A stretch of 64,000 bases of DNA from Ctena decussata (Eukaryota > Mollusca > Bivalvia > Lucinida > Lucinidae), in the NCBI GenBank assembly GCA_963989385.1, contig OZ022515.1, positions 12,246,803 to 12,310,802 on the forward strand. Reading direction: 5' to 3'. The notes under the pieces are model-generated. The model had not been told where the DNA came from. It worked only from the letters and a program-made list of their open reading frames with translations, and made no database searches. Both the position numbers and the translations under genes were made by a program. The first letter of the stretch is position 1; each line of letters begins with the position of its first letter. Positions 6,509-52,351 of this stretch are shown here, one piece after another.

Positions 6509-25588
<19,080 letters not shown>

Positions 25589-30059: not shown

Positions 30060-32513
30060 CAGAGCTCCACATAAGAAGGAGTAACTTACTGATAATTCAG
30101 AGATAACTTTTCTTATTTCTCAATGAAAGCATATGTTGTGACCCCTCATTAGAACCGTCTCAGCGAGACGGTCCTAATGAGGGGTAACAACATATGTTTC
30201 TATAAAAAAACAAGTAGCCCAAAGGGCAACAATTGCTCACCTGAGAGACATTGTAAACCTATAGGGATATTTAAGATGCTCAAGGGCAGCTAACTCCACA
30301 GTCAGTGGTCCAGTCAGGCTGAAAATTAAACTCATCCAAAACATTATGTATGCCCTCATTTAATATATGCAAGTTTAAAAAGTATCCAATCAAGAGCACA
30401 ATAGACAGAGCTGTCAAGGGCAGCTAACTTCGTAGTGGTTGGCCTGATCTGGCCAAAATTTGAACTTGTTTAAGATATTATGCATTTCGTCGTTACCTGC
30501 AAGTTTGAAAAGGATCGGATCAGTAGAAACCAAGAAAAAAAGGCGACATTGATTTTTTTGGATGCTCAGGGCAGGTACTCCATAGTCAGTGGTGGGATCT
30601 AGACGAAATGCTAACTAATCCAAGCTTTTATGCATATCCTCATTACCTGCAAGTATGAAGAGGATCCGATGAAAAATAAAAATGTGATGACGTTTTCTCC
30701 ATTATAAGACTATGGGATTTTTTTCAAATGCTCAAGGGCAGCTAACTCTGTAGTCTGTGCTCGAATCCGGCCAAATTTCGAACTCGTCCAAGCTCTTATG
30801 TATGTCATCATTACCTGCAAGTATGATAAGGATCTAATCAAAAACCTTGATTGCAGCACCCTGAAAGTCAAACTTGCTCGAGATATTGTCATGCCCTACA
30901 TTTGTGTGAATTTATTTTAAAATCCGTTGAGAAATGTAGGTGCTAGAGTGATGACAAAGTTTTTCTAAAAATAGCCACAGTGACCTTGACCTTGGGCACA
31001 TCATCCTGAAAGTCGAACTTGCTCGAGATATTGTCATATCCTACATTTGTGTCAAGTTATTTCAAAATCCATGGTGAAATGAAGGTGCTAGGGCGATGAC
31101 AAAGTTTTTCTAAATATAGCCACAGTGACCTTGACCTTGGGCACAGCACCCTGAAAGTCGAACTTGCTTGAGATATTGTCATGCCCTACATTTGTGTGAA
31201 TTTATCTTAAAATCCATTGATAAATGTAGGTGCTAGATCCCTGACAAAGTTTTTCTAAAAATAGCCATAGTGACCTTGACCTTGGGCGCAGCACCCTGGA
31301 AGTCAAACTTGTTTGAGATATTGTCATGCCCTACATTTGTGTGAAGTTGATTTAAAATCCCTTGAGAAATGTAGGCGCTAGAGCGATGACCAAGTTTTTC
31401 TAAAAATAGCCACAGTGACCTTGACCTTGGGTGCAGCACCCTGAAAGTCAAACTTGCTCGAGATATTGTCATGACCTACATTTGTGTGAAGTTATTTTAA
31501 AATCTGCTGAGAAAAGTAGGTGCTAGAGCGCTGACAAAGTTTTTCTAAAAATAGCCACAGTGGCCTTGACCTTGAGCGCAGCATCCTGAATGTTGAACTT
31601 GCTCGAGATATTGTCATGCCCTACATTTGTGTGAAGTTATTTTAAAATCTGCTGAGAAATGTAGGTGCTAGAGCTCTGACAAAGTTTTTCTAAAAATAGC
31701 CACAGTGACCTTGACCTTTGGCGCAGCACCCTGAAAGTCGAACTTGCTTGAAATATTGTCATGCCCTTCATTTAAAAGTTATTTTAAAATCCGTTGAGCA
31801 ATGTAGGCAATAGAGCGATGACAAAGTTTTTCTAAAAATATGTGATGACGTTGTTTTCTCCATTATAACACTATGGGATTTTTTTCAAACGCTCATGGTC
31901 AGCTAACTCTGTAGTCTGTGCTCGAATCTGGCCAAATTTCGAACTCATCCAAGCTCTTATGTATGTCATCATTACCTGCAAGTATGATAAGGATCTAAGC
32001 AAAAACAGTTGAGAAAACGTGATGACGCCATTTTCCCCATTATAACCCTATGGGATTTTTTTCAAATGCTCAAGGGCAGCTAACTCCGTAGTCTGTGCTC
32101 GAATCCGGCCAAATTCGAACTCATCCAAGCTCTTGTGTATGTCATCATTATCTGCAAGTATGATAAGGATCTAATCAAAAACAGTTGAGAAAACATGATG
32201 ACGCCATTTTCCCCATTATAACCCTATGGGGGCTATCTGTTGCCATGGAAACCAGAGTTCTGAGCTGATCGGCACCAAAACCTAATGCAGCCTTTCCCCC
32301 ACCCAAATCATGCTTCAAATAAAATTTGATTGCGATCGGCCCACTGGTCTCTGAGATATTTATGTTTGAAAGTGTTGACGCACCCACGGACCCACAGACC
32401 CACGGACGGACGACGGCTCGACTCCCATCCTATAAGCTCACCTCTGAGCCTTCGGCTCAGGTGAGCTAAAAATTAGGAATAATCCCTAGTACCCGTTCTT
32501 ATCTGGAGCACTG
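30060..32513. mobile_element. CAGAGCTC MITE, copy 5, split by a Helentron-like element
   Basis: MITE portions are 30060-30209 and 32468-32513. Left half has CAGAGCTCCACATAAGAAG and the central ACCGTCTCAGCGAGACGG; right half resumes AATTAGGAATAATCCC and ends CTTATCTGGAGCACTG. Confidence 0.75.
30210..32467 (+). mobile_element. Helentron-like (HINE/pearl-type) element with 145-bp array
   Basis: Begins ACAAGTAGCCCAAAGGGC (hairpin GCCC-AAA-GGGC), then TTGCTCACCTGAG; ends CCCACGGACGGACGACGG microsatellite, CCTATAAGCTCACC, hairpin GAGCCTTCGGCTC, AGGTGAGCT plus A-run. The centre (about 30870-31850) is a tandem array: AGTGACCTTGACCTTGGG or its variant recurs at 30979, 31124, 31269, 31414, 31559 and 31704, exactly 145 bp apart. 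Outer units with CCAAGCTCTTATGTATGTCATC form a second repeat. Confidence 0.8.
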
Positions 32514-37500: not shown

Positions 37501-40500
37501 AAAAATTATCCTTAATTATCATCAAATACTCCCTCTTATCTAGAGCTCTGTATTTTAATAGTATTTCAGTCATATCAGGACATTGGGGGCTGATAATGAA
37601 AGGCTAATTGCAATGACGCCACATTTACGACGATTGAAAAGATTCCCGCCTACAGTGGGGCTGGAACCCAGGACCGCTGGATCAGCAGGCCAGCACTTAT
37701 CCCACTGAGCTACCGGGACTTCGAGATTTCAAAAGGTAATACAAATAATTCAGAGATAGTTTTCTTAGTCCTCTACAAACACATGTTGTGACCCCTCATT
37801 AGAGCTGTCATGGCAAGATGGTTCTAACAAGGGGTCACAACATACAATTTTATGGAAAGTAATAAAAATTATTCCTTAATTATCCCTGTTACCCCTTCTT
37901 ATCTGAAGCTCTGCAAAGAAAATTAAACTCACCTATAGGAGTATCTACATTTCTTTTTAATTCTGGAAAATAGGAAAGATTTTTGGTTGATTGATTTGAT
38001 GCTTAAAGTCCACGGTAAACAACTAAGGTCATGTCGGGACGGTCAGTTAACCTAACCACACTATTCCTGGGCAGGCTTAGACCTCCTAAGCGGTTAACCA
38101 GTACTAAGTGCACATACTTTCGACAGTAACTGACAACTGCCCTTTTTGAATCAGCAGAAGGAGAAACGAAAGTATGTGGCCAGACCGGGATTCGAACCCA
38201 GGACCTCTGACTTACGAGTCAGGTGCCCTACCGATTGCGCTACCCGGCCCGGCCAAATAGGAAAGAACATGTTAGTAAACAAAATAACCTTTTTCAGACA
38301 GAGGGCAGCAGCAGGTAGCATTATCACTTAAGTGAATCCCAGAACACAAAGTTTAATTCACAAACAGCGAAGATCCAGATGAGGCAGCTCATAATGAGCT
38401 GCTTTATCTAGATCTACTCTGATTGCTCTCTACTCCTTGAATTCTCAATATGAAACATTTTTTTTTTAATTTTGCAGATGCAAATTCTGTTGCTTGTGTT
38501 TTGGCACTTTAAGAGTAAACTTAATTCATACAAGCCACATAATGAGAATACCTGTCTTCAGACATGTAGATGGATGGATGACTTGCAATTTTACATCATT
38601 TTCAACAGTATTTCAGTCATATTAGGACAATGGGAGGGTGATAATGGAAGGCTGTGTGTTTTGGAACCCGTTCATGGTTGGAAAGATTTCCGCTGGGGGA
38701 ATCTGACCTGAGATTGTTAGATCAGCAGGCCAGCACTTAACCCAATGAGCTACTGGGGCTCTCTTGAGACATGTAAATCTGTCATTTGAATTACCTTATA
38801 CAGGGGAATTTTTCTGGTCTTCCAATTTTTGCGTTATTTTGCTGTCACCATGAGACTGCGAAAAACTGAAAATTGCCAAATATTTTCCAATTTCTGACAG
38901 AATATCTTTGGTATACATGGCATCAAAATTTGTTTCGTGTCTTTTTGCATGGAAAATTCTATCACTTTTTGTTTGATCTCAACAGGATTTGTCACTGATG
39001 ATGCCAGTTATAACTATGGTAAGAGATGAATTCAATATATAAAATTCAGAGGACGATTATGCGAAACTTTAAAATGCTCATTGCACAACAATATTACGAG
39101 CTTATTGATTGGTATCAATGAAACAGATAATTGCTGGTGACACCTTTATTCAAAGCCACTTTCAAAGCAATGAATACATTTACCGCATATATGTTTTATT
39201 ACAGCATTTTGAAAAAAAAAAGGGCATTAACTATATTGTTTCTCAAAATACTGTCTTGTTAAAGCCATGACAAATTCTGTGTGTAAGGGTTTAATTTTTG
39301 CACATACTGCAGATCCCCAAAAATTTAAAGCTTACATTTCTGACCCCATACCGCAAAAATCTGAACCTGTGAAAATGAAGGTAGATACAGTACTTACCAC
39401 TAACCCAGTCTTTTATGTCATAGAAACTGTCTGAAGATGTGATGTCATAGATTAACATGGCAGCATTGGCTTTTCTATAGTACATCGGTGCCTGAAGGAG
39501 AACTACAGCTTAATTAGTTGAAAAGATATACAGGATCTTACATGATTGAGTGCTTGATCATGTATTACTGAATTTATGAAACAAGTTGGGGAAAAATATA
39601 AGATGCGAGGCTATGCCGAGCATCTTATCTTTTCCCCCAACAAGTTTAATAAATTCAATAATACAGGGGCACGAATGCAAGATTCTGTTTATCATATGAC
39701 ACTAAAATTGCATTTTATTAGCATGGTACTCAGTTTATCAGGCATCATATTAGGTAGCTGATATAGAATTAAACAGGAAAGCAAAAAGGCATATGATATT
39801 GCATTTCTATTATGACATGATTTTATGATTTCATTCAGATGTCATTCAGCCATCAAAATGCTGAGATCATTTATTTTGACATGTCAGCAACTAGCTGATC
39901 AATAGAAATAATGTTACTACTGGCCATGGGTTTCCCTTTATCCGACCAATGAGGGCTCCAACTGATACATGTACTCAAAATGAGCCAATCAGGTGCTTAC
40001 TATGTCACATTAACAGGATCATCCAAGATTATCAGATCTCTGTTATCGATTACATTTTAATGCAGCAGTACATCAGAGCTTCAGATAAGAAGAGGTACTA
40101 TGGATAATTCAAAGATAATTTTTCTTATTTCTCAATGAAAACATACCGGTATATTGTGACCACTCTTTAGAACCGTCTCAATGAGACGGTTCTAATGAGG
40201 GGTCGCAAACTATGTTTTTATGGCAAAATATGGAAAATTTTCCGAAAATATTCCTATTACCCTTCTTATCTGGAGCACTGTGTATATGCTCAAGGCCACT
40301 CCAGCTAGACTGGCAATGAACTTATACCCCAGTCTGAAGAGTAATCATTTATATGAGCCGCAACACGAGAAAACCAACAATGTGTTTGTGTGCCCAGCGC
40401 AGACTCAGATCAGCCTGGGCGTATGCCCAGCCTTATCAGAGTCTTCGCTGTCCGCATGAAGGTAGCTTAGACCCTTAGCTACCTTTTAAGCGCTTAGGGA

Positions 40501-46147: not shown

Positions 46148-47985
46148 TTGGCTTTGGTGTTGGTGCTTGGATTCATTGTATGGAAATGGCTGAACTCGGT
46201 ACATTCCCTGGACTCAAACCAGGAATGTGGTATTGGTTTTGGAAACCCTTCTGGTAGTATATCCCATTTTTTGGAATACTCCAGGAAACTTGGAAACTGC
46301 AGAAATTCGGAAAGTCTACGCAGCTTTAAACCGTCAAGAGGTACAAATCTGCTTGTACTAATCATCCTGGCTGGGGATATTGAAATAAACCCAGGTCCCT
46401 GTGCTGTCAATGCAATAAATATTGTAAGGCGGCAGACAAGGTTGTTAAATGTGAGGAATGCAGAAAATCCTTTCATGTGACATGTGTAAAACTCAGTGAA
46501 AAAGAATTGTTGGAATTAAAATCAGGAAATGGATCTTGGTATTGCACTGGCTGTAAAGCTGACTGTGATATATGCAGCGGTCCTGTTCTATATGGTCACA
46601 AAGCAGTCCAATATGACAAATGTGATATGTGGATTCACAATGAATGCTCTCTCATGACAGAATCTGAATTTGATGCTGTGAAAAACTCAAACTGCTTGTG
46701 GTTTTGTCCAAAATGCCACTTTTCCATTTTTTCGGATTCATTCTTCTCAGAGCAATTAAACTTGGAAAATCAAAATAGGTTTGCTCCATTGGCAAAGGAT
46801 AATGGAACTAAAACTCCCCAAAATGTGACAAATAAAGACAAATTTATTAGCGGATTGAAATTTGCAAGCATAAACATCAATAGTATACGGGGTAAGAAAC
46901 TTGAGTTGTTGGCCTTCCTTGACTTTCATCAACCTCAGATTGTGGCAATTCAAGAGTCAAAAATTGACAGCTCCATATCAACCTCAGAATTGTTTCCAGA
47001 AACTTTTCCATACAGTGTATACAGGAAGGATAGAAATGATTCCGGCAGTGGTGTAATGTTGCTTATCCACAAGGATATCCCGCATATGCCCATCACAGAA
47101 TTGGAAAACGACTCAGAATCAGTATGGGTTAAAGTGTTTGCAAATAAAACTTCTCATTTTGTGGCAAGTTGGTATCGAACACCTGATGAAAAATTGTTAA
47201 AATTGGAAGATTTTGACCGTTTGTTCAGAGAACAGCTTGATAAAATCAGGAATAAACATAAAGGCAACAAACCACCCTCAGTTCATGTACTAGGGGACTT
47301 CAACTTCCGAAATATTGTTTGGCCTGACAGACTCAACAAATCTGGTTCAGCCTTGAGTCAGTCGGAGGGACAAAAGTTGGTAGACATTATGAATGATCAT
47401 GGATTGGAGCAGTTAGTCCACTTCCCTACAAGAGAAAGAAACACATTGGATTTAATAATGACTTCCCTTCCTACTCAATTTGTAGACATCCACTCCCCGG
47501 ACAAACTCAGTGATCATGACATTGTTTCTGGAACTTTGAAAGTAGTTATTCCCCCCATCAAGAAACCTAGGAGGAAGGTTTATCGTTATCAGAAAGGTGA
47601 TTATGAATCTATGAGGGCAGAAACACTTAAATTTGCAAAAGAAAAGTACTTTAATGGTTACTCAGACACTCGCTCGGTTCAAGAAAACTTCAATCTGATT
47701 ACTTCTTTCATTCAGGACTCAGCAGATAAGCATATTCCATCAAAAACTAGCTATATAGTCGCACGGTCTCCTCGGTTCCATGGATAACACCTGAAATAAG
47801 ACGCAAGATTCGCAGAAGAAATGCAACTCACGCAAAAGCTAAGAAGACTGGTAGCGCAAAAATTAGATCTAAATTTGAAACTTTACGGAGAGAAATCAAA
47901 GCTGATATTAGGAAGCAGCATGCACTCTATGTGAATAACTTGGTTGGTGATGTTAAGGCTAATCCCAGGGACTTTTATCAATAGG
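46148..47985 (+). pseudogene. LINE N-terminal part: 2A-like motif, PHD fingers, endonuclease
   Basis: One frame (46148-46480) ends a hydrophobic segment LLVLIILAG in DIEINPGP, matching the 2A consensus D-x-E-x-NPGP. The next frame encodes zinc-finger pairs CCQCNKYC, CEEC...FHVTC, CTGCKADCDIC, CDMWIHNEC and CPKCH (to about 46725). The endonuclease spans about residues 126-370 of the 46477-47787 frame: FASININS, AIQESKID, VLGDFNF and LSDHD. Frameshifts occur just after NPGP (46399-46402), near 47770 (before PWITPEIRR) and near 47975, so this copy is inactive. Confidence 0.85.
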
Positions 47986-48030
47986 TACATCAATAGTCAG
48001 AAAAAAGACACCCAAGGTATCCCCCCTTTA

Positions 48031-50687
48031 AACAAGAGGGCCATGGTGGCCCTGAATCGCTCACCTGAGCATTAATCAGTTCACTGGCTCTGGTGAAGAT
48101 TTATAAGAGTTTTTACCATACTAACATTTGACCTAGTTTTTGACCCGACATAACCCAGTTTCGAACTTGGCCTGGATATTGTAAGAATAAACATTCTGAC
48201 ACAGTTTCATTGGGTTTGGATCAAAACTGTGCCCTCTGGAGCGTATACAAGGTCGTTCTTATATTTGACCTAGTGACCAAGTTTTTGACCCGACACGACC
48301 CAGTTTCAAACTTTACCTAGATTTCATTAAGATAAACATTCTGACAGAGTTTCATGAAGATTGGATCAAAACTGTGCCCTCTAGGGTGTACACAAAGTTT
48401 TTCTAAGATTTGACCTTGAGCCGACGTGACTCAGTTTCATAGGGGTCTTAGATATAAGGACAATAAACATTTTGACATAGTTTCATGAAGATTGGATCAA
48501 AACTATGCCTTCTAGTGCTTACACAACGTTTTTCTAAGATTTAAACTAGTGACCTAGTTTTTTACCCGACATGACCTACTTTCAAACTTGGCCGAGAGTT
48601 TATGAAGATAAACATTCTGACAATGTTTCATAAAGATTAGTTCAAAACTGTGTCCTCTAGAGCGTACACAAGGTTCTTCTATGATTTGACCTAGTGACCT
48701 AGTTTTCGACCCGACATGACCCAGTTTCAAACTTGTCCTACATATTATGAGGATAAACATTCTGACATAGTTTCATGAACTTTGAATCAAAACTGTGCCT
48801 TCTAGAGCGCACACAAGGTTTTTCTAAGATTTGACCTAGTGACCTAGTTTTCAACTCGACATGACCCAGTTTCGAACTTGGCATAGAGTTTATGGAAATA
48901 AACATTCTGACAATGTTTCATAAAGATTGGATCAAAACTGTGTCCTCTAGAGCGTACACAAGGTTTTTCTATGATTTGACCTAGTGACCTAGATTTTGAC
49001 CCGACGTGACGCAGTTTCGAACTTGTCCTAAATATTATTAGGATTAACATTCTGACAAAGTTTCATGAACTTTGGATGAAAACTGTGCCTTCTAGAGTGT
49101 ACACAAGGTTTTTCTAAGATTTGACCTAGTGACCAAGCTTTTGACCCGACATGACCCAGTTTCAAACTCATCCTACATATTATGAGGATAAACATTCTGA
49201 CAAAGATTCATGAACTTTGGACCACAACTGTGCCTTCTAGAGCTTACACAAGGTTTTTATAAGATTTGACCTACTGGCCTAGTTTTTGACCCGACAGGAC
49301 CTACTTTCAAACTTGGCCGAGAGTTTATGGAAGTAAACATTCTGACAAAGATTCATAAAGATTAGATCAAAACTGTGTCCTCTAGAGTGTACACAAGGTT
49401 TTTCTATGACTTGATCTAGTGACCTAGTTTTTGACCCGACATGACCCAGTTTCAAAAGTATCCTACATATTATAAGGATAAACATACTGACAAAGTTTCA
49501 TGAACTTTGGATCAAAACTGTGCTTTCTAGAGCGTACACAAGGTTTTTCTAAGATTTGACCTAGTGACCTAGTTTTTGACCCAACAAGACCCAGTTTCAA
49601 ACTTGGCCTAGAGTTTATAGAGATAAACATTCTGACAATGTTTCATAAAGATTGGATCAAAACTGTGTCTTCTAGAGCATACACAAAGTTTTTTCTATGA
49701 TTTGACCTAGTGACCTAGTTTTTGACCCGACATGACCCAGTTTCAAACTTATCTTACATATTATAAGGATAAACATACCGACAAAGTTTCATGAACTTTG
49801 GATCAAAACTGTGCCTTCTAGAGCGTACACAAGGTTTTTCTAAGATTTGACCTAGTGACCTAGTTTTTGACCCAACAAGACCCAGTTTCTAACTTGGCCT
49901 AGAGTTTACAGAGATAAACATTCTGACAATGTTTCATAAAGATTGGATCAAAACTGTGTCCTCTAGAGCATACACAAGGTTTTTCCTATGATTTGACCTA
50001 GTGACCTAGTTTTTGACCCGACGTGACCCAATTTCAAACTTGTCCTAGATATTATAAGGATAAACTTTCTGATTAAGTTTCATGAACTTTGGATCAAAAC
50101 TGTGCCTTCTAGAGCGTACACAAGGTTTTTCTAAGATTTGACCTAGTGACCTAGTTTTTGACCCGACATAACCCAGTTTCGAATTTGGCCTAGAGTTTAT
50201 GGAGATAAAGATTCTGACAAAGTTTCTTAAAGATTGGATCAAAACTGTGTCCTCTAGAGCATACACAAAGTTTTTTCTATGATTTGACCTAGTGACCTAG
50301 TTTTAGACCCGATGTGACCCAGTTTCGAACTTGTCCTAGATACAATTAGGATAAACATTCTGACAAAGTTTCATGAACTTTGGATGAAAACTGTGCCCTC
50401 TAGAGCGTACACAAGGTTTTTCTAAGATTTGACCTAGTGACCTAGTTTTTGACCCGACATGACCCAGTTTCGAATTTGGCCTAGATTCTATAAAGACTAA
50501 CATTCTGACAAAGATTCATGAAGATTGGGTCGAAACTGCGCCCTCTAGAGTGTACACAAGCAAAAATTGACGGACGTCCGGACGGACCGACGGACGTCCG
50601 GACGGACGTACGACCGACGACGGACATCACGGTATCCTAAAAGCTCACCCTGAGCACGAACTGAGCACTTCGTGCTCAGGCGAGCTA
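48031..50687 (+). mobile_element. Helentron-like element with about seventeen 145-bp units, inside the LINE
   Basis: Begins ACAAGAGGGCCATGGTGGCC (hairpin), TGAATCGCTCACCTGAGC; ends GACGGACGTCCGGACGGAC microsatellite, ATCCTAAAAGCTCACC, hairpin GAGCACTTCGTGCTC, AGGCGAGCT plus A-run. Between lie about 2.4 kb of tandem 145-bp units (TTTTTCTAAGATTTGACCTA, GTGACCTAGTTTTTGACCCG, GATCAAAACTGTG). Two unit types mostly alternate, giving a 290-bp higher order. The 68-73-codon minus frames here are by-products of the array. Boundary uncertainty is 1 nt in an A-run. Confidence 0.85.
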
Positions 50688-52351
50688 AAAAGAGGAACGG
50701 AGATGGGGTCGCCCAATCGGATTCCGAGAAGGCGGATGAATTTAATGGTCAGTTCACGGATGTGTTCACCAAAACAGAACACAACCAGGTCCCTCTTTTG
50801 GATAGATCAGCCCCATTCATGGAAGAAATTGTTGTTACTAAGGAAGGGGTTACAAAACTTCTTAAAGGATTAAACCCATCTAAGGCCTTAGGACCTGATG
50901 AACTTCATCCTAGAGTTCTAAAGGAGTTGGCGACAGAGTTGGGTCCGGTATTTGCCCATCTTTTTCAACAATCGATTGATAGAGGTGAAATCCCTCGTGA
51001 ATGGTCTCTTGCGAACATTTGCCCCCTGTTCAAGAAGGGGGACAGGTCTCTTGCCCGTAATTATCGTCCGGTATCCTTGACCTGCATACCTTGCAAGCTG
51101 CTTGAACATATTGTGTGGTCGAATATAATGGCCCATCTTGATGAACATAAACTTTTGTCAGACAAACAACATGCATTCAGAAAATGGCATAGCTGTGAAA
51201 CTCAGTTGACTACGGTGATAGATGATTGGGCAAAAGTGTTAGACAATAAGGGTCAGGTTGACACTTTTATATTAGATTTTGAAAAGGCTTTTGATACACC
51301 CCCACATGAACTACTTAAAAGCAAACTATTTAGCTACGGTATAGGTGGTTCAACATTGAATTGGATAAACGCTTTCCTATGCTTTAGACAACAAAGGGTA
51401 GTAGTAAACGGTGTTATGTCAGACTGGGCCCCTGTTGTGTCTGGTGTCCCACAGGGCACCGTTCTTGGTCCCTTGTTGTTCTCCTTGTACATAAACGACA
51501 TCTCTGCAGACATTGAGTCTGAAATAAGACTCTTTGCTGACGATTGTGTTTGTTACCGTGAAATAAAAGGAATAGATGAAACATTGAAACTTCAGGAAGA
51601 CATTGATCGTTCAGGATGTTGGGCTAGGAAATGGGGTATGAGATTTCAACCTGTCAAATGCAACATGATGCAGCTGAAAAAAAAGCACAACAAAATCCAG
51701 GCTTCTTACACCCTTGAGGGTACAGTACTGATAAATGTTGAAAGTATCAAATACCTTGGAGTAACAATTACAAGTGATTGGAAATGGAATACCCATATCA
51801 TTAATATTTGCACTAAGGCCAACAGAACCCTAGGATTCTTAAGGAGAAATTTGTTTTCTTGTCCCCAAGAAGTGAAAGAAGTAGGCTATAAGACATTGGT
51901 GCGTCCCATCCTCGAATATGGAAGCTCGGTCTGGGACCCCTATACACAAGGCCTTCAGGAAGAGTTAGGAAAGGTGCAAAACCGTGCAGCTAGGTTTGTA
52001 ACTAGGAATTACACCCGAGAGGCGGGTAGCATGACTTGCATCCTTGAGCAACTTAAGTGGGAAAGCCTCAAAAAGAGGAGGAAGGATAACCGACTCATAT
52101 TGCTATACAAAGGTCTGAAAGGTAAAGCCAGAATACCTACAGGTGACCTTGTCCCCGAAACTAGGCGTTGCAGAAATCAACATTCCATGGCATTTCAGAT
52201 ACCCACTGCTAGTTTAGATGCATATAAATGTAGCTTCTTTCCCCAGACCATCAGGGACTGGAATGACCTCACTGATTCCCTGATTTCCTCTGCTGAAATG
52301 TCAGATGATTGTGTGTCAAAGTTCTCATCTCTCGTGAGAGCTAGGGACTAA
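50687..52351 (+). pseudogene. LINE reverse transcriptase, open frame
   Basis: Long open frame through the whole RT: NPSKALGPDELHPRVLKELA, PLFKKGDRSLARNYRPVSLT, GVPQGTVLGPLLF (about 51440) and the catalytic LFADDC (about 51531), ending RARD-stop. The visible ATG-started frame at 50672 borrows codons from the tail of the inserted Helentron-like element; genuine LINE sequence starts about 50687. RT itself looks intact, but its N-terminal part is separated from it. Confidence 0.9.

Follow-up and report, generated by a model that had tools for sequence, protein, structure and literature searches.

A satellite-carrying element, probably a HINE, inserted in a LINE of a bivalve genome, and composite copies of its family

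What is the segment that interrupts the LINE at 46384-52351 of the window, and by what kind of insertion did it arrive? The window, that is the whole stretch of 64,000 nucleotides from Ctena decussata that was analysed, had been described in a first-pass annotation as carrying a LINE split, in a given reading frame, by a Helentron-like element that had entered without target-site duplication. The split itself is borne out by translations in that frame and by Pfam domains on either side (PHD, Exo_endo_phos_2 and Exo_endo_phos on the left, RVT_1 on the right). The LINE and the site of insertion comprise the following features.

46384..48029, plus strand: left part of the LINE, with PHD finger and endonuclease domains and two frame breaks before the element (translation, Pfam)
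48030..48032, no strand assigned: left A run at the insertion, 3 of 8 A (sequence)
50687..50691, no strand assigned: right A run at the insertion, 5 of 8 A (sequence)
50692..52351, plus strand: right part of the LINE, with reverse transcriptase (ORF, Pfam RVT_1)

At the filled site, TTT is followed by AAA (48030-48032) and the first invariant C at 48033; on the other side, T (50686) is followed by AAAAA (50687-50691) and then GAGG, giving 3 + 5 = 8 A in total. The joined LINE flanks were searched for in the window's own genome (1,657,992,415 bases in 245 contigs). When the LINE family was aligned across the junction, as the first-pass annotation had proposed, all 40 scored paralogs (674 first-look candidates) proved to be uninterrupted, with 96-97% identity, 365-366 of the 366 bases of the joined flanks covered and match lengths of 360-362 nt. 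Relative to these paralogs, the window copy has four extra bases just upstream of the junction. The A run at the empty junction, read in 20 of the 40 scored paralogs, is six bases long in 19 and five in one (L086); 18 of the six-base runs are all A, the other being AAATAA (L084). The net gain at the LINE site is thus 2 nt (8 A filled versus 6 empty), which excludes a target duplication longer than 2 nt. Homologous proteins give the same picture: all 120 listed, of 171 found, cross the junction without an insertion, 117 of them with the length of PPLKKRNG and three one or two residues shorter. Both samples are biased towards intact copies, since the protein collection is made up of open frames, while scoring in the genome search went to the best joined-flank matches; they show that empty LINE copies are numerous and do not bear on whether any other LINE copy carries the element.

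The empty site put forward in the first-pass annotation is therefore real, as proteins and same-genome paralogs attest, but the junction as literally given there (TTTA + AAAAGAGG) retains 5 A, which puts the LINE out of frame. Its claim of no duplication holds for anything longer than 2 nt, with an ambiguity of 1-2 nt in the homopolymer: at the LINE site alone, a duplication of 1-2 nt is indistinguishable from T's owned by the element. It had named a duplicated target and LINE copies all carrying the segment as findings that would speak against it; neither applies, since any duplicated target is at most 2 nt long and there are LINE paralogs that lack the segment.

In the genome contig collection, LINE relatives with 22-29% identity were met at 13 distant loci, seven of which belong to a single Bathymodiolus brooksi symbiont assembly; all 13 were left out of the empty-site set. 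None was found in the viral contig collection. LINE-like sequences stand in records of bivalve symbionts (Candidatus Thiodiazotropha and the Bathymodiolus brooksi symbiont; P0104, L001, L003, L004, L007, L008, L010 and L011), where they are probably host DNA in those assemblies.

The inserted segment, hereafter E1, measures 2,656 nt when the 2 extra A/T, which are not placeable within the flanking runs, are counted. Its anatomy is that of a non-autonomous Helentron element (HINE). As the end with the microsatellite is the 5' end in the published HINEs of oyster (Cg_HINEs), the 5' end of E1 lies at about 50686 and the 3' end at about 48033, and the element is on the minus strand, the opposite of the orientation first annotated. 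It is composed as follows.

48033..50686, minus strand: HINE, invariant core of 2,654 nt (A-run lengths at filled and empty sites; ends alike in 17 measured copies)
50673..50685, minus strand: 5' subterminal inverted repeat (subTIR), GCTCGCCTGAGCA on the minus strand (position; 13-nt inverted match with the other end)
50643..50685, minus strand: 5' terminal hairpin, formed by the 5' subTIR and a complementary inverted repeat (IR, 50643-50656) (fold z -7.8, position, copy comparison)
50569..50625, minus strand: GTCC-type microsatellite adjoining the 5' end (TRF, position)
48129..50560, minus strand: central satellite-like array, 145-bp period, 16.8 copies (TRF; 145-bp row with n.8 monomers in all 17 measured copies)
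48059..48070, minus strand: 3' subTIR, GCTCAGGTGAGC on the minus strand (position)
48037..48053, minus strand: 3' palindrome AGGGCCACCATGGCCCT, then CTTG and T's (fold z -3.1, position)

The terminal hairpins and opposed sub-terminal repeats reported in the first-pass annotation are both upheld. In DNA folding, the end at 50640-50692 (z -7.8) was matched in stability by none of 200 shuffles and the end at 48028-48075 (z -3.1) by two of 200. An inverted match of 13 nt with at most one mismatch, within the size of HINE subTIRs (11-15 nt), joins the outer 60 nt of both sides and is reached by none of 300 mononucleotide shuffles. The microsatellite that had been placed near the 3' end is present as well, as a GACG/GTCC-type repeat, but at what is the 5' end in the published HINE orientation. 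SubTIR and IR are separated by a gap of 16 nt in the window copy, whose 5' hairpin exceeds that of most copies by 11 nt. If TT belongs to the element, about 3 nt separate the 5' subTIR from the 5' end; on the other side, the distance to the 3' end of the core is 26-37 nt for the 3' subTIR and 4 nt for the palindrome. No ORF of at least 120 aa (stop to stop) is found inside 48033-50686, the LINE ORF at 50654-52351 overlapping the last bases only.

The 145-bp array is missing from the first-pass annotation. Its unit contains the direct repeat TGACCT-N2-TGACCT, presumably of the nuclear-receptor type. A signalling function for this repeat was weighed and discarded, since 54 of 145 equal-length windows are at least as conserved; a narrow literature search on this signal in the 145-bp unit found no paper.

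In the same genome, 39 other copies are 98-99% identical to the 3'-side query, among 40 scored of 3,688 first-look candidates, and identity over the 3'-most 570 nt averages 98.1% (96.5-98.6, n=16). By these identities the family is young. Ends and arrays were compared in 17 measured copies, namely 15 of 20 fetched copies that have both ends, the window copy and L030; the other five fetched copies (L062, L063, L064, L067 and L069) gave no complete element in this test, and in L052 and L070 it was the inner of the two 5' ends that was measured. All 17 contain a 145-bp row with n.8 monomers, which in L054 spans part of the array only, and array length ranges from 7.8 to 24.8 units. The constant n.8 indicates that gain and loss in the array involve whole units, the junctions on either side staying fixed. 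In the 5' hairpin loop of L068, TTC stands where most copies have GAA, as if flipped. Exact HINE-end patterns were also scanned for in the viral and genome contig collections, and none was found.

Four more elements with the same kind of ends, likewise absent from the first-pass annotation, lie in the window.

21845-23880: E2, same-ended element with units of about 325 bp
about 30209-32470: E3, same-ended element with units of 145 and 176 bp
about 13680-14786: E4, same-ended element nested in E5, with units of about 325 bp
13243-15802: E5, same-ended element whose units resemble those of E4 by eye

An inverted end match of 13 nt occurs in all five window elements and is reached by at most one of 300 shuffles. 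The 3' palindrome is middling in E2 (z -2.5, 5/200 shuffles) and weak in E3 (z -1.3, 21/200) and E5 (z -1.0, 31/200). The 145-bp units of E1 (48129-50560) and E3 (30853-31840) align with a score of 92, as compared with a maximum of 45 in 200 shuffles, when consensus sequences from rough monomer splits are used, and the two elements so appear to share an old repeat. Beside E3, an imperfect long palindrome was seen by eye at 30130-30196, possibly a separate short inverted-repeat element. Elsewhere in the window, a tRNA-like match lies on the minus strand at 38177-38249 (Rfam RF00005; no amino acid assigned by ARAGORN), and two adjacent ORFs at 16224-17648 have by eye the look of a hAT-type or zinc-finger (ZMYM-like) transposase.

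Whether the two additional A/T at the LINE site are a duplicated target or belong to the element can be addressed at a second site. An 80-bp satellite, at 1-1440 and about 4655-4892 of L070, is the target of that copy, one of the composites described below. At the insertion place, 12 of the 17 complete left-hand units have six T, three have five T and a G, and two are rearranged; the two complete right-hand units both fall short of six, with four T in the first case and five T plus a G in the second. Taking the left-hand majority as the empty site, the filled site (5+3 T) has gained two T. All 17 measured copies have at least four T before AGCTC (TGCTC in L052) and at least one T after CTTG, and the longest shared flank repeat among them is 3 nt. 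In three of the 17 (L052, L054 and L030) just one T follows the 3' end, and this speaks against duplication of TT, barring a later mutation. For this reason we prefer the reading that the element begins with TT-AGCTC, ends with CTTG and inserts between T's.

Two further cases were less precise. L064 holds another HINE in an E1-type monomer, where a clean insertion fits only to within 1-2 nt; E4 nested in E5 was tried as a further empty site and set aside, being too diverged to be fixed better than to about 4 nt. Also inside E5 lies a SINE-like insert (15318-15509), with a tRNA-like start by eye and no call by ARAGORN or Rfam, flanked by a 12-nt target-site duplication, TCCTTGAGTGGT (15318-15329 and 15498-15509). 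Such a plain duplication in the same window demonstrates that duplications are readable here.

Taken together, same-genome empty sites, a second site with two additional T and the published module order support the HINE-type insertion into an A/T run proposed in the first-pass annotation, without target-site duplication longer than 2 nt. We consider E1 a young HINE on the minus strand, moved by a rolling-circle mechanism with Rep and helicase acting in trans, with a probability of roughly 0.9; for the rolling-circle movement, it is the anatomy from which we infer it. A cut-and-paste transposase acting on a MITE or another terminal-inverted-repeat element, with a 2-nt AA/TT target duplication, would explain the inverted repeats near both ends, and duplication of TT could in formal terms account for the 2 nt gained at two sites. 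Such an origin is nevertheless very unlikely, given that the two ends are asymmetrical (subTIR, IR and microsatellite at one, subTIR and palindrome at the other) and that TT is not duplicated in the three copies with one 3' T, unless later mutated. Cut-and-paste would not be expected to yield composites in which two 5' ends go with one 3' end (one such composite occupies a single target run), and in place of the constant target-site duplication of this class only the net +2 nt is seen, at two sites, in a window where the SINE displays its 12-nt duplication plainly. That recombination or repair, and not transposition, brought a free-standing satellite array into the LINE is scarcely credible: the segment does consist mostly of a 145-bp satellite-like array, and many places in the genome have repeats like it, but ends of one kind and a constant array phase recur in 17 of 17 measured copies at different loci, and removal of the segment restores the empty LINE run apart from 2 nt.

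For the HINE, the following course of events is envisaged. A Helentron Rep/helicase supplied in trans would nick at the 5' TT-AGCTC end, and one strand would be peeled off in the 5' to 3' direction until the first 3' end with subTIR, palindrome and CTTG is met. The single strand would then be joined between T's of a T-run, so that no longer duplication would arise. The array may grow or shrink by recombination or replication slippage between monomers. A stop at the first 3' end implies that an element nested in the array of another could leave together with the outer 5' end.

Composites of this kind exist as a minority, two of the 20 copies fetched by their 3' side having two 5' ends and one 3' end. 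L070 has the order 5' end, array, 5' end, array, 3' end; L052 and its upstream neighbour L092 together have the same order, with a degenerate inner 5' end. No part of an array was found downstream of the 3' end in any of the 20 copies (370-422 nt) or in any of eight over about 1,500 nt, nor was an array found within 25 nt upstream of any of the 30 5' ends fetched, three of which (L039, L040 and L046) have element parts further upstream. The composites fit directional rolling-circle movement, and their simplest reading is a rolling-circle transfer that starts at the outer 5' end and stops at the first 3' end it reaches. Tentatively, and at somewhat less than even odds, we propose that they are transposed units: where an element is nested in the same orientation in the array of another, everything between the outer 5' end and whichever 3' end comes first would be mobilised together, and each round would add 5' ends and lengthen the array. 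It is doubtful that, instead, a second element merely inserted in the array of the first and the outer 3' part was later deleted. The inner 5' ends do lie in or near T-rich places of the monomer, as nested insertion predicts; in L070, however, the 80-bp satellite continues on both outer sides of one T-run, which shows the usual gain of two T, and a deletion would need to have ended exactly at the inner 3' end with the satellite left in register. This flank argument applies to L070. If the composites are transposed units, L070, in one T-run with a readable empty site, would document in nature that Helentrons move with 5'-to-3' polarity, and composite transfer would be a route by which satellite arrays can grow inside mobile elements.

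As an element, E1 is of a known kind; its usefulness lies in clean material, that is a recent family, same-genome empty sites and a fixed array phase. The closest description is that of the oyster Cg_HINEs, and the likeness is one of architecture by published description. In the available parts of that account (PMC7492417), Cg_HINEs have a subTIR, a complementary IR and a microsatellite on the 5' side and a subTIR and palindrome on the 3' side, with the satellite-like array between them, the same order of modules as in E1. Alike are also the GTCY/GTCC/GTCK microsatellite of several Cg_HINEs, the monomers of predominantly 140-180 bp, the T-rich target without target-site duplication, and the existence of some elements with related flanks and unrelated arrays (PMC7492417). 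Cg_HINE arrays average 3.62 units, with a longest of 29.3, as against 16.8 in E1 and 7.8-24.8 over 17 copies, and their subTIR-IR gaps measure 1-12 nt, as against 16 nt in the window copy (PMC7492417).

As far as their available descriptions go, HINE/DINE-1 elements of mites, mosquito and Drosophila share with E1 the subTIRs and 3' stem-loop, the partly element-owned T's at the ends, the lack of target-site modification and, if TT is owned, the 5' subTIR 3 nt from the 5' end (PMC4067079). In mite HINEs the 3' subTIR lies 38-60 nt and the palindrome 8-35 nt from the end (PMC4067079), whereas both are nearer here (26-37 and 4 nt). The Pearl elements of bivalves (CvA, CvE, CvG, DTC84 and MgE), compared by description, are likewise modular, non-autonomous and provided with tandem repeats, up to six of about 160 bp according to the portions available (PMC7492417, PMC5139131, PMC11136912). 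An autonomous Helentron partner has been found for the mite, mosquito and Drosophila HINEs (PMC4067079), while the available text on Cg_HINEs gives none related to them and leaves the partner of satellite-carrying HINEs open in oyster (PMC7492417); the present genome, with its young copies, is a place to settle this point.

The part most worth following is the composites, as they bear on the direction of rolling-circle movement. None with two 5' ends was found described for Cg_HINEs in the available parts of PMC7492417, and a later review, as far as available, mentions that oyster as having element parts that are truncated, tandemized and nested (PMC12628747). More than one 5' end is described, in the portions at hand, for the FoHeli Helitrons of Fusarium (PMC5148889), and multiple 5' ends, many with a single 3' end, for plant Helitron arrays (Xiong et al. 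2016, via PMC12628747). In comparison with these multi-5' Helitrons, the family described here has one such unit in a target with a readable empty site.
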